A stretch of DNA of 64,000 nt from Nostoc sp. HK-01 (GTDB lineage Bacteria > Cyanobacteriota > Cyanobacteriia > Cyanobacteriales > Nostocaceae). The position numbers and the translations under genes are program-made. The DNA is taken from assembly GCA_003990705.1 (NCBI GenBank), contig AP018318.1:1801501-1865500 (forward strand). The letters run 5' to 3'. A model generated the notes under the pieces. It had not been told where the DNA came from and did no database searches. It saw only the letters and a program-made list of their open reading frames with translations. Of the stretch, positions 34,800 through 38,874 are shown piece after piece (position 1 is the first letter of the stretch; every line of letters starts with the position of its first letter).

Positions 34800-36254
34800 T
34801 TATGCTACGGGTAAAGTGAGAATAAACCCTGTTTGACCAGAAGTTAGAGAATCCAGCGCGAGTTCGCCTTGATGCGCCCGCACAATTTCGCGGGCGAGGC
34901 TGAGTCCCAGCCCGATTCCTTCTACTTTACGGGTACGAGCCGGATCACCGCGATAAAAGCGCTCAAATAATCGATCGCGATCGCTGGCTAAAATATCTTT
35001 TGATGAATTGGCAATTGTAACTTTAAGAGTTTTTTGTGTTTGATACGCCTGAATCTTAATCCAGCCATCAGCAAAATTATATTTGATTGCATTACTCAGC
35101 AGATTTTGGAGAACTTGTATGAGTAAATCGCGATCGCCCTTCACCTGCAAATTATCAGGAATATCAGTTTGCACACTCAAGTGAGGAGCCAGCAATTCTA
35201 CATCTTCGACAATCTCCAGTAGTAACTCAGACATATTCACATCAGCCAGATACAAACCCATTTTTCCTGCATCTGCTAAAGATAACAGCAAGAGTTTTCG
35301 CATAATTCCACTCAAGCGATGCACTTCATCTAATAAATTGCTTAAGCGTTGCTGCACTTCACTTCCCGGCTCAACTTGTTGGAGCGATCGCTCCAATTCA
35401 CCTTGCAAAATAGTTAATGGGGTTTTTAGTTCATGGGCTGCATCTGCACTAAAGCGTGAAGCTTGGGTAAAACTGCGTTCCAGACGTTCTAACATTTGGT
35501 TAAACACCCGAATCAGTTCCACAAATTCCACATCTGTAGTCTCACTGGGAATCCGCTGATCTAGCCCTTGGACTGTCACCTGTTGAATTACCCCGGTTAA
35601 CTGGCGGATAGGATGTAACGCACCACCAGAAACAAACCAAGCCCCAACCGCAACCAGAACTAAAGCTCCCGGAATTGATATAAGGAAGATGTTGCGAATA
35701 CTCGCCATTTCTTGATTGACGGCTTGTAGACTAACGGCGAAAGCCACTTGAGCATTCGGAAATTTAGCCGCACCAATCCGCCAAGTTGCTTTTGCGGTGT
35801 GTTCCGTAACCAATTGTGGTGGAATTGGGCGAGGTGGTGGTTTTACAGGCTGATTTGTGCCGAAAATTACAGGCGGTCGTTGTCGGGGAATAGACGGTGG
35901 CGCAGGTGCTAACTCCAGACGCTGAATTAGTAAACCTTTCACCTCGGTATCCGCAGATAAGGAGTTAAATTCACGGATTGTCTGACCGTTAGTATCCAGT
36001 ATCAGTAAGGCGATGGGGGTTTTTGAATTCGTACCAAAGTCAGAAGGTAATAGTTCTGGACGCGGAGGTAATTTTCCTGTCTCTGGGGGACGGTTGGCGC
36101 GGAGTAACTGATTTAACAGTTCTGCATCTAAGCGGCTAATTTTGGCATTGTAAATCTGAAACCAGGATACTGCACCAAAACCGACTAATGTAGTGCCAGC
36201 TAGAGTCGCAGATAACAGCGCAATGCGGAGTCGAAACGATCGCAGTTGTTTCAC
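34800..36254 (-). CDS. Sensor histidine kinase with Pro-rich periplasmic loop
   Basis: A 484-residue kinase: membrane helix at about 10-30, a periplasmic loop of about 150 residues, second helix (FLISIPGALVLVAVGAWFV), HAMP, HisKA with AAHELKTPLT, and an HATPase with intact N box (LLSNAIKYN) and GIGLGLSLAREI. The loop is notably Pro-rich (GKLPPRPELLP, PPSIPRQRPP, KPPPRPIPPQ). It overlaps the response regulator stop by 4 bases, so translation is coupled. The signal is unknown; general layout resembles metal-stress sensors of the CusS/RppB type. Confidence 0.88.
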   Translation of the reverse strand: MKQLRSFRLRIALLSATLAGTTLVGFGAVSWFQIYNAKISRLDAELLNQLLRANRPPETGKLPPRPELLPSDFGTNSKTPIALLILDTNGQTIREFNSLSADTEVKGLLIQRLELAPAPPSIPRQRPPVIFGTNQPVKPPPRPIPPQLVTEHTAKATWRIGAAKFPNAQVAFAVSLQAVNQEMASIRNIFLISIPGALVLVAVGAWFVSGGALHPIRQLTGVIQQVTVQGLDQRIPSETTDVEFVELIRVFNQMLERLERSFTQASRFSADAAHELKTPLTILQGELERSLQQVEPGSEVQQRLSNLLDEVHRLSGIMRKLLLLSLADAGKMGLYLADVNMSELLLEIVEDVELLAPHLSVQTDIPDNLQVKGDRDLLIQVLQNLLSNAIKYNFADGWIKIQAYQTQKTLKVTIANSSKDILASDRDRLFERFYRGDPARTRKVEGIGLGLSLAREIVRAHQGELALDSLTSGQTGFILTLPVA

Positions 36255-36934
36255 GATTGATTGTCTGGTTTGCGAAACCGATAGCCAACGCCGCGAATGC
36301 TTTCAATCCAATTTGTTTCGTCAATCGGGTCAATTTTTTTGCGAATGCGCTGAATGCAGACATCCACAACGTTAGTATTAGGGTTAAAATCATAGCCCCA
36401 AATATGTTCTAAGATTTGGGTACGGGTGAAAACTCGACCGGGAGAGCGCATCAGATATTCCAGTAAATTAAACTCACGGCTAGTAAGTTCTATAACGCGT
36501 TGATTGCAAGTAACTTCCCGTGTGATGCGATCAAGTTTGATTGACCCAACCGCCAGCAAATTTTGGCGATCGCCTACACTCCGACGCACCACCGCATGAA
36601 TCCGCGCCGCTAATTCTTCCACAAAAAAGGGTTTAGCAATGTAATCATCGGCTCCCAAGTTTAAACCAGCGAGGCGATCGTCTAGTTCATTACGAGCCGT
36701 TAACAAAATTACCGGAGCATTCCGCCCTTCCCGACGCAGTTGTTTGAGAATCGATAAACCATCTTTTCCCGGCACCATAATGTCCAGAATAATGGCATCA
36801 TATTCGTTATCCATTGCTCGCAGATATCCATCATCACCGTTGTCGCAATAGTCTACGACAAATCCCTGTTCCTTCAGTCCAGCCCGGACGAAGTTAGCAA
36901 TTTTTGCTTCATCTTCGACAAACAGAACATTCAC
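36251..36934 (-). CDS. OmpR-family response regulator
   Basis: A 227-residue regulator with receiver domain (D51 in IILDIMVPGKDG, Lys near 100 in YIAKPF) and a winged-helix DNA-binding domain ending IRGVGYRFRKPD. It is the first gene of the two-component operon and has a near-palindromic ATTACA-N4-TGTAAT site 57 bases upstream, which also occurs before two downstream secreted-protein genes. It may therefore regulate itself and those genes. Confidence 0.92.
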   Translation of the reverse strand: MNVLFVEDEAKIANFVRAGLKEQGFVVDYCDNGDDGYLRAMDNEYDAIILDIMVPGKDGLSILKQLRREGRNAPVILLTARNELDDRLAGLNLGADDYIAKPFFVEELAARIHAVVRRSVGDRQNLLAVGSIKLDRITREVTCNQRVIELTSREFNLLEYLMRSPGRVFTRTQILEHIWGYDFNPNTNVVDVCIQRIRKKIDPIDETNWIESIRGVGYRFRKPDNQS

Positions 36935-36980
36935 AAGCTTTCACTAGTTCACTGATTGTTTCATTATAGATTTGTTATCT

Positions 36981-37006
36981 TGTAACTTAAATTACAAATC
37001 TGTAAT
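36981..37006. promoter_or_regulatory. Operator-like site, copy 1 (response regulator promoter)
   Basis: ATTACAaatcTGTAAT at 36991-37006, with a further half-site TGTAAC at 36981-36986, so half-sites occur every 10 bases. It lies upstream of the response regulator. Confidence 0.6.
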
Positions 37007-37078
37007 TTAGAGCATTTTTTCATAGTCAAGAATTGCGATCGCTCTTTTTCAATAACCTCTTGTGTATTCTTTGATCAA

Positions 37079-37117
37079 ATTACAAAAATGTAATTTATAA
37101 AATAGGCTATCTGTAAT
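37079..37117 (+). promoter_or_regulatory. Operator-like site, copy 2 (upstream of 37173 gene)
   Basis: ATTACAaaaaTGTAAT at 37079-37094 followed by another TGTAAT at 37112-37117, 23 bases from the previous TGTAAT. The same three-half-site layout with the same spacing occurs at 38332-38370. Confidence 0.65.
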
Positions 37118-37172
37118 TTTAAAGTGGCTTAATCATCAATGTCAGCAACATAAATTTTCGAGGTTAACTGTG

Positions 37173-37445
37173 ATGAATATCCGTAGATTATTAACTGTCG
37201 CAGCAATTCCCTTTATGATTGGTACATTTGGTTTTGTGGGAACTAATCAAGCAAATGCCGAGGCTCCTTCTCATCGCCACACACAAATTGCCGAGCAACT
37301 AAGTCCTAATAAAAAACCACAAATTAAACATCAACAAGCCCGTCCACAGCAGAAAAAGCGTCCTCCTCAAGTGAATCCTCAGAACACAAATCATAATCAT
37401 CAAGACTTAAATAGCCAGAAGAAAAATCAAGGAATTAGATTTTAG
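37173..37445 (+). CDS. Small secreted basic, His-containing protein
   Basis: Start at ATG 37173, preceded by GAGG. The 90-residue product has a signal peptide (MNIRRLLTVAAIPFMIGTFG, cleavage after NQANA). The mature part is rich in Lys, Gln, Asn, Pro and His (SHRHTQ, NHNHQD), which may bind metal. Its leader resembles that of the protein at 38424 (TGTFG...NQANA versus IGTFG...NQANA), so the two share ancestry or an export route. It is under operator copy 2. Confidence 0.7.
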   Translation: MNIRRLLTVAAIPFMIGTFGFVGTNQANAEAPSHRHTQIAEQLSPNKKPQIKHQQARPQQKKRPPQVNPQNTNHNHQDLNSQKKNQGIRF

Positions 37446-37538
37446 GTGTTAGGTTACACAACTGCTAATACCCAATGTGAACAACAAATATTTGTATGTA
37501 AATCTGACTGATTAAGTAACACCAAATAATTAGACCTG

Positions 37539-38306
37539 ATGAACATCAATAATCGCCTATTAAGTCGCAGAGAATCACTGGGTTTATTTAGGGCAGGTGG
37601 AACTGCAATATTTGTAGTGGGATGTATGCCGAAAAAGTCTATCTCTCCACAGCAACAAGTAAGTGTAGCTACTCCCATATCATCTACGGTTAATTCTGCT
37701 AACGTGCCTGGATGTGTCGTTAGTCCACAGCAAACTGAAGGGCCTTATTTTGTCGATGAAAAGCTCAATCGCGCTGATATTCGCGCTGATCCGGCGGATG
37801 GTTCGGTCAAAGCAGGCGTACCCCTCCAATTAAAGCTGCATATTTCTCAAATTGGAGGTAGTAGCTGTATACCCCTTGCAGGTGCGATTGTGGATATTTG
37901 GCACTGTGACGCATTAGGTGTCTATTCAGATGTAACAGACCAAAGTTTTAATACTGTGGGCAAAAAGTTTTTACGCGGTTATCAAGTTACCGACGCACAG
38001 GGAAATGTTCAGTTCACAACTATTTACCCTGGTTGGTATCCAGGTAGAACCGTCCATATCCACTTTAAGGTGCGTACAGAGGGGAAATCGGCACAGGGTT
38101 ATGAGTTTACATCGCAACTATATTTTGATGATGCCATGAGCGATCGCATTTACACCCAAGCACCTTACGCCAGCAAAGGACAACGCACGCTCAAGAATGC
38201 TGATGACGGCATTTTTCAAGATGGTGGCGAGCAAATGTTACTCAAACTAACAAGTAATGGACAAGGTTACACCGCCACTTTTGATGTAGGGCTTCAGATG
38301 GTGTGA
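37539..38306 (+). CDS. Intradiol ring-cleavage dioxygenase, Tat lipoprotein
   Basis: A 255-residue non-haem iron dioxygenase. The C-terminal domain shows the Fe ligands: Tyr in GPYFVDE, and Tyr-His-His in GWYPGRTVHIHFKV. The N terminus has SRRESLGLF, a twin-arginine motif, followed by a hydrophobic stretch and the lipobox VVGC with Cys29, so it is probably exported folded and lipid-anchored. It follows the His-containing secreted protein by 93 bases and is probably cotranscribed. Extracytoplasmic aromatic-ring cleavage is suggested; the substrate is unknown. Confidence 0.82.
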   Translation: MNINNRLLSRRESLGLFRAGGTAIFVVGCMPKKSISPQQQVSVATPISSTVNSANVPGCVVSPQQTEGPYFVDEKLNRADIRADPADGSVKAGVPLQLKLHISQIGGSSCIPLAGAIVDIWHCDALGVYSDVTDQSFNTVGKKFLRGYQVTDAQGNVQFTTIYPGWYPGRTVHIHFKVRTEGKSAQGYEFTSQLYFDDAMSDRIYTQAPYASKGQRTLKNADDGIFQDGGEQMLLKLTSNGQGYTATFDVGLQMV

Positions 38307-38331
38307 TTTTGGCAAAATACTATGCACAAAA

Positions 38332-38370
38332 ATTACAAAACTGTAATCCACAATCAGGGCGAACTGTAAT
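38332..38370 (+). promoter_or_regulatory. Operator-like site, copy 3 (upstream of 38424 gene)
   Basis: ATTACAaaacTGTAAT at 38332-38347 and TGTAAT at 38365-38370, again 23 bases between the two TGTAAT starts, the same geometry as copy 2. Confidence 0.65.
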
Positions 38371-38423
38371 TTTGATTCGGTTAAATAAAAAACATAAGCC
38401 ACTTAACTTTCTAGAGGATGATC

Positions 38424-38807
38424 ATGAAACTGAACAAAGCCATAGTCGTAACAGCAATTTCAATTCTCACTGGTACATTTGGCGTAATTTCACTCAATCA
38501 AGCAAATGCAGCTAATCCAGTGTATAAAATTGCCCAAGCTTCACAACCTTCCGACCAACCACCAGAAGGACAACGCCCACCCCGCCCAGATTTTGCCGCC
38601 GCCGCCCAGAAGTTGGGTGTCAGTGAACAAAAATTAAAAGATGCCTTGGGTGTTCCTGCTCATCCTCCTGGTCAAGGTCAACGCCCACCCCGCCCAGATT
38701 TCGCCGCCGCCGCCCAGAAGTTAGGTGTTAGTGAACAAAAATTAAAAGATGCCTTGGGTGTTCCTGCTCATCCTCCTGAAGGGAACCGCTCTAATACCAG
38801 AAGATAG
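38424..38807 (+). CDS. Secreted protein with duplicated 36-residue unit
   Basis: Start placed at ATG 38424 (AGAGG 6 bases before); an ATG at 38418 is also possible. The 127-residue product has a signal peptide ending NQANA and a tandem duplication in which each unit reads QRPPRPDFAAAAQKLGVSEQ, then KLKDALGVPAHPP. The helical part resembles short AAAxKLGVSExxLxxAL motifs seen in other secreted proteins. The PPRP motif also occurs in the sensor loop of the nearby kinase. A strong hairpin follows at 38837. Confidence 0.72.
   Translation: MKLNKAIVVTAISILTGTFGVISLNQANAANPVYKIAQASQPSDQPPEGQRPPRPDFAAAAQKLGVSEQKLKDALGVPAHPPGQGQRPPRPDFAAAAQKLGVSEQKLKDALGVPAHPPEGNRSNTRR
38571..38777 (+). repeat. 108-bp in-frame duplication
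   Basis: Copy 1 starts at 38571 and copy 2 at 38679. The two share almost every base; I count about three substitutions in the core, mostly silent (TTG/TTA, GTC/GTT). This points to a recent duplication. Confidence 0.85.
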
Positions 38808-38836: not shown

Positions 38837-38874
38837 TATCGAGCTTGTTCTAGTTTTTAAGAACAAGCTCGATA
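38837..38874 (+). terminator. Hairpin after the 36-residue-repeat protein
   Basis: A 15-bp perfect stem, TATCGAGCTTGTTCT (38837-38851) with AGAACAAGCTCGATA (38860-38874), loop AGTTTTTA. The T-run after it is weak, so it may be a terminator or a processed hairpin. Confidence 0.55.

Follow-up and report, generated by a model that had tools for sequence, protein, structure and literature searches.

The locus and the question that it raises

The recurrence of one near-palindrome, ATTACA-N4-TGTAAT, among the genes that flank a two-component system of Nostoc sp. HK-01 raised a question: is this sequence the operator of the adjacent response regulator and, if so, what does that regulator control? 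The locus occupies 34.8–38.8 kb of the window (the whole stretch of 64,000 nucleotides from contig AP018318.1 that was analyzed). Genes for a sensor histidine kinase (484 aa; 34800–36254) and an OmpR/PhoB-type response regulator (227 aa; 36251–36934) lie on the minus strand. Divergent from them, on the plus strand, are the genes for HisP (37170–37445), a small, basic, proline-rich protein of the secreted type (91 aa; no family); an intradiol ring-cleavage dioxygenase (255 aa; 37539–38306), in which a twin-arginine signal and a lipobox-like VVGC were recognized by eye; and DUP (129 aa; 38418–38807), also of the secreted type, with two proline-rich, helix-hairpin-like units and no family above the cut-off. 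A terminator-like hairpin of 15 pairs stands 3' of DUP (38837–38874, plus strand); the whole scan found two such hairpins vs. 4.1 in shuffled sequences.

Occurrence of the palindrome in the window and the genome

The earlier note described three copies of the palindrome, and we confirmed all three as exact matches: palindrome 1 at 36991–37006 (minus strand, on the regulator side), palindrome 2 at 37079–37094 (plus strand, facing HisP and the dioxygenase) and palindrome 3 at 38332–38347 (plus strand, facing DUP). They are the only matches without a mismatch in the window; when two mismatches were allowed, there were 12 matches vs. 6.1 expected, a number reached in one of 100 shuffles. The extra TGTAAT that the note placed at an equal distance after palindromes 2 and 3 is likewise present, at 37112–37117 and 38365–38370 (plus strand), in both cases 23 bp from start to start, i.e. 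with 17 bp between. We refer to a palindrome with this third element as the composite. A genome-wide search, which the note had proposed for the composite, located the 16-mer at three places in the 7.52-Mb genome, all in this locus (a reversed control pattern: one place), and the composite at two, both of them the target promoters described here (control: none). A tolerant scan (up to three mismatches) gave 36 composites vs. 26 for the reversed control, with none at zero or one mismatch beyond the two already named; because of this, the weaker matches must be regarded mostly as noise.

How surprising are these counts? Estimates from base composition (window G+C) predict about 1.8 chance 16-mers per genome, and a single copy of the palindrome therefore means little. 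The probability that three would fall within a single specified 1.39-kb stretch is about 6e-12, and only about 0.0017 composites are expected per genome. The note's argument from equal spacing at two promoters is weak when taken alone: the N-terminal leaders of HisP and DUP are related (33% identity, E 3e-6), the two promoters may be duplicates of each other, and, given this shared leader, their equal spacing cannot count as an independent line of evidence. Stronger evidence comes from conservation in other genera and in front of genes that are unrelated.

Conservation in the family and the phylum

The composite with TGTAAT was found in 38 of 145 family genomes, and the reversed control in none. 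The bare palindrome is common (94 of 140 family genomes) and, with the chance expectation given above, is not evidence by itself. A regulator ortholog (E 1e-100) was present in 47 of 140 family genomes, in 51 copies; 42 of 145 gave a match to the dioxygenase (E 0.001). Among the 140 genomes, 30 had both the composite and the regulator, and 88 had neither; five of the 35 genomes with the composite had no regulator match at E 1e-100, and 17 of the 47 with the regulator were without the TGTAAT form (Fisher p 1.2e-13, a nominal value since the genomes are related). Thirty of 43 composite sites lay within 8 kb of the regulator, while the other 13 did not on the same contig, some of them being on short contigs.

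We fetched 60 stretches, comprising 51 regulator loci and nine composite sites away from a matched regulator. With up to one mismatch per part and TGTMAT accepted as the third element, the composite occurred within 700 bp upstream of the regulator ortholog in 41 of the 51 loci, and it pointed away from the regulator, in the divergent direction, in all 41. Among the ten loci without it in that interval, one has the third element shifted by one base (L110), another is truncated where its contig ends (L114), and several have no site in the vicinity.

Nostoc, Planktothrix, Microcoleus and Nodosilinea are among the named relatives that have the regulator. The third element reads TGTAAT twice in Nostoc calcicola; Microcoleus has one site with TGTCAT and one with GGTAAT, and Planktothrix has GGTAAT. 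Nodosilinea has a variant palindrome lacking a third element, and no site was found at the Phormidesmis locus. In two genomes of another genus (L122, 6578–6737; L130, 2569–2728), palindromes occur in pairs at a distance of 144 bp and with no exact third half-site.

A phylum sample yielded the composite in 20 of 386 genomes (control: none), ten in the family, nine outside it in the same order and one more distant. Outside the family, with the regulator nearby, the composite faces a Spy-like gene in L274 (by eye) and DUP-like genes in L275 and L276. L278–L280 have both the regulator and DUP nearby, yet their composite faces another protein. By eye, the protein that the composite of L291 faces is Spy-like; in L277, L281, L285, L286 and L287 the composite faces other ORFs or none. 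In these stretches of 3 kb (1.9 kb for L281), L291 included, there was no regulator match. Some composite matches, such as that of L286 with no ORF downstream, look like chance.

The adjacent regulator as the proposed binder

Which protein would bind this sequence? The regulator scored above the cut-off for both Response_reg (91.5 bits) and Trans_reg_C (100.4 bits), the domain pair of the OmpR/PhoB type. The best of the models listed was that for heavy-metal response regulators (TIGR01387; 242.2 bits, below the curated cut-off of 279.2), followed by PhoB, RppA, CusR and HprR; the curated HprR model was not reached. In a midpoint-rooted tree of 36 rows, in which HprR and CusR were the only E. 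coli regulators (BaeR and CpxR were left out), the regulator fell in a clade of 16 rows (96/85) with its orthologs, HprR, CusR, two alphaproteobacterial sequences and one from Nonomuraea, and 19 of 19 paralogs from its own genome fell outside. The inner fork of 15 rows that joins the cyanobacterial clade directly with HprR and CusR is weak (83/54). The regulator is 41% identical to HprR and 43% identical to CusR, and the three have in common a helix region, TNx(V/I)DVx(I/V)xR(L/I)R.

The DNA sites correspond as well. The divergent hprR-hiuH promoter of E. coli, which we fetched, contains the identical core ATTACAAAATTGTAAT, and cusR-cusC carries TGACAATTTTGTCA, which has the same layout as the box here. 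A box printed for both CusR and HprR, CATTACAAAATTGTAATG (PMC9302797), has a 16-letter core that is present in the hprR-hiuH region. As here, boxes of the TGACA-N4-TGTCA or a related GTAAT type lie in divergent promoters of CusRS and of the Pseudomonas CopRS, CusRS and CzcRS systems; similar half-sites, GTAAT among them, are given for the Pseudomonas relatives (PMC11195947), and footprints of P. putida CopR span several half-sites (PMC12428095). Branching with HprR and CusR, in combination with an N4-centered palindromic box in the divergent promoter, places the regulator in an HprR/CusR-like subgroup. The earlier note had professed not to know this system. That stands insofar as the open-access literature, which excludes most subscription papers, yielded no description of this two-component system; the palindrome itself, though, is a known box of the HprR/CusR subgroup.

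Operators of one-component regulators can likewise contain inverted repeats of such a type, and the 13 composite sites that do not lie within 8 kb of a regulator would be in keeping with a different transcription factor at the palindrome. We deem this very unlikely: the composite and the regulator strongly co-occur, the E. coli box matches, and the regulator supplied the only DNA-binding family among the five proteins scanned (from the list of ORFs ≥90 aa at 34.8–38.8 kb). The note's choice of the adjacent OmpR-type regulator as the best candidate binder is thus favored by its co-occurrence with the composite in 30 of 140 genomes, its position in 41 of 51 loci, its clade and the matching box, and the palindrome is very probably the regulator's own DNA-binding site.

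The third element at +23

The spacing of the third element was scanned in 184 unique directed palindrome contexts from 64 loci. TGTMAT stood at +23 in 72 of them; the next most frequent offset had nine. Fifty-six palindromes have HisP or DUP within 260 nt downstream, and 46 of these have an exact element at +23 (TGTAAT in 30, TGTCAT in 16). Three more have one mismatch, two have the element one base nearer, and the remaining five are the regulator-side copies of the genus discussed below. The same two hexamers form the right halves of boxes in E. coli, TGTAAT that of the HprR box and TGTCAT that of the CusR box. At +11, counted from the right half, each of these boxes (L155, 3371–3397; L156, 2514–2538) has another TGTAA or TGTCA, in HprR as TGTAAG, vs. 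+23 here. From this identity and the additional E. coli half-sites, we therefore interpret the third element as a half-site that lies about one further helical turn away.

Two other readings of the element were rejected. TGTAAT at +23 is not a -10 box, as the 30 TGTAAT and 16 TGTCAT among the 56 palindromes form no TATAAT-like series. Nor is a second full palindrome seen around it: by eye, the upstream half in the aligned columns is not ATTACA-like.

A further alternative is that the element is a -35 hexamer (C/T-TGTMA, cf. TTGACA) and that the regulator binds only the upstream palindrome. Its position suits a -35 region, E. coli promoters of this type likewise have their box near -35, and an A-rich block (columns 55–60) starts 17 bp past the hexamer if the latter occupies columns 32–37. 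We hold this to be rather unlikely, in view of the 46 of 56 target-facing palindromes with exactly TGTAAT or TGTCAT, which are half-sites of the HprR and CusR types and have T where -35 boxes have A. The half-site and -35 roles may, moreover, coincide. A clear -10 element could not be assigned at the target promoters, where columns 49–67 hold conserved A/T blocks but no good -10 fit, and a consensus promoter scan was not above shuffles (seven sites vs. 8.8).

Promoter geometry and a proposed operator duplication

On the regulator side the arrangement is different. Palindrome 1, a putative operator without a third half-site, is followed at 22 nt by TATAAT (36963–36968, minus strand), the likely -10 of the regulator promoter. 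An exact palindrome lies within 160 nt in 36 of the 51 regulator loci, which could thus be scored; the other 15 have none that close. Toward the regulator, TANAAT follows the palindrome at 22 nt in 27 and at 21 nt in two of these (29 of 36), while five have no TANAAT and two have it further off. Twenty-four palindromes serve both directions: TANAAT lies to one side of them, and TGTMAT (at +22 or +23) to the opposite side.

In the genus to which the window belongs, all five of the fetched regulator loci (L095–L099; 36991–37094 in the window) have two palindromes. The regulator-side copy keeps TATAAT and has no third half-site, and the far copy keeps the third half-site and has no TANAAT. We take this as a duplication of the shared operator, with a division of labor between the copies.

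Could the third element be an inherited relic, copied with promoter and leader from one ancestral gene and devoid of any function of its own? The related leaders of HisP and DUP speak for this account, which we nevertheless regard as exceedingly improbable. The spacer letters diverge while the element stays, a comparison limited to the columns outside the element since the 74 aligned contexts were selected on it; it also precedes genes for unrelated proteins (membrane-fusion and Spy-like); and it is missing from the regulator-side copy in the genus just described.

In the regulator's own promoter, the box would abut the -35 region, with its center near -42 if TATAAT is the -10 element. A box next to -35 with TATAAT 22 nt on fits positive autoregulation. 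The annotation of HprR in E. coli is that of a dual regulator, and the protein here might act mainly by repression, holding the locus silent until a signal arrives; the placement of the box just upstream of the regulator-side -35, with TANAAT at 21–22 nt in 29 of 36 loci, makes this unlikely. Such a position is the usual one for activators.

Candidate targets

The first ORF after 78 composite sites (64 loci) was DUP-like in 35 cases, HisP-like in 17, the dioxygenase in seven and another in 16; three sites had none. Eight of the 16 other ORFs were scanned, and these proved to encode an HlyD/CusB-type membrane-fusion protein, an ABC ATPase, two LTXXQ (Spy-like) proteins, a cytochrome b561, an LGFP-repeat protein and two proteins without a family above the cut-off. 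Four more membrane-fusion proteins and two more Spy-like proteins were recognized among the 16 by eye.

The dioxygenase scored 56.4 bits against Dioxygenase_C (cut-off 27.3), as an intradiol ring-cleavage enzyme should. Its Tyr and His-X-His positions, which we take to be ligands, align by eye with those of the nearest solved chain, 6bdj (Tetur07g02040). The latter, an enzyme of a spider mite, cleaves catechol and methylcatechol; procyanidins and caffeic acid are substrates of certain relatives that are secreted (PMC9167512). In one Nostoc relative (L097, 4757–5184) the dioxygenase gene matches in two pieces with the middle missing, and the operators and neighbors persist. Metal binding by HisP was considered and rejected, as its His residues are not conserved among 20 relatives (unaligned sequences, by eye). 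A structure prediction for DUP alone (mean pLDDT 62.5) was too weak to build on. The target set, i.e. small secreted proteins and an exported dioxygenase, with HlyD-type and Spy-like proteins in relatives, suggests envelope defense, possibly directed against phenolics.

The kinase and its possible signal

The nearest NCBIfam model for the kinase is that of heavy-metal sensor kinases (TIGR01386), with 247.8 bits, below the curated cut-off of 292.55. Residues 30–190 hold no Cys and a single His, present in 3% of 38 orthologs; Met183 is conserved. The periplasmic region is the least conserved part (0.48 vs. 0.74 in the catalytic part, 38 orthologs). A set of metal ligands is thus not apparent, and the sensor sequence of the kinase lends no support to metal sensing. 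Its structure prediction with five rows (mean pLDDT 60.4) was too weak to build on. A periplasmic stretch of the kinase, ANRPPETGKLPPRPELL (residues ~53–70), resembles the DUP unit EGQRPPRPDF; the likeness could reflect a sensor-ligand relation or mere proline-rich composition. A phenolic or general envelope signal is our leading guess, offered with low confidence.

Comparison with known systems and proposed mechanism

The known relatives differ in what they control. E. coli HprR targets hiuH-msrPQ, unlike the targets here. CusRS, CopRS and CzcRS respond to metals and control metal resistance, and CusS has a His- and Met-rich stretch; in the periplasmic stretch of the present kinase Cys is absent and the only His is not conserved, and the locus has a third half-site at +23. 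Synechocystis CopRS (copMRS, copBAC), like the present system a cyanobacterial two-component system, activates its own operon (PMC13421787); its targets, that operon and an RND copper exporter, are unlike those here. BaeSR and CpxAR of E. coli are envelope-stress systems associated with Spy, which is induced by tannin, butanol and ethanol (PMC8144458). Spy-like proteins and exporter parts are also among the candidate targets in some relatives, but there is no Spy-like gene at the window locus.

We propose that an envelope signal would lead the kinase to phosphorylate the regulator, which would then bind ATTACA-N4-TGTAAT as a dimer. At the secreted-protein and dioxygenase promoters, the box would be extended by the third half-site, TGT(A/C)AT, some two helical turns downstream, and this would let additional regulator bind beside RNA polymerase. 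We consider it quite probable, from the sequence comparisons above, that the palindrome is the operator of an envelope-defense regulon activated by the adjacent HprR/CusR-type regulator. Judged in this manner, the operator is a real and conserved one, the regulator is of a known kind, and the arrangement of half-sites is a conserved variation.

These results yield a putative operator, a regulator and a compact regulon for a two-component system of which we found no description in the open-access literature, and the handle ATTACA-N4-TGTAAT-N17-TGTMAT finds candidate targets in related cyanobacteria. They point to a common operator grammar, in which the additional half-site stands at +11 in E. 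coli and at +23 in this system, and to a naturally occurring operator duplication with a division of labor. A broader picture, which we find rather doubtful, is that an HprR/CusR-type regulator responds to catecholic or phenolic stress in a cyanobacterial pathway of envelope defense that is separate from metal resistance. The targets would carry the three-half-site operator (the palindrome with TGTMAT at +23), and the promoter of the regulator would have the palindrome alone, so that targets and autoregulation would respond at different regulator levels; and in the genus of the window, an ancestral shared operator would have been duplicated and divided between both jobs.
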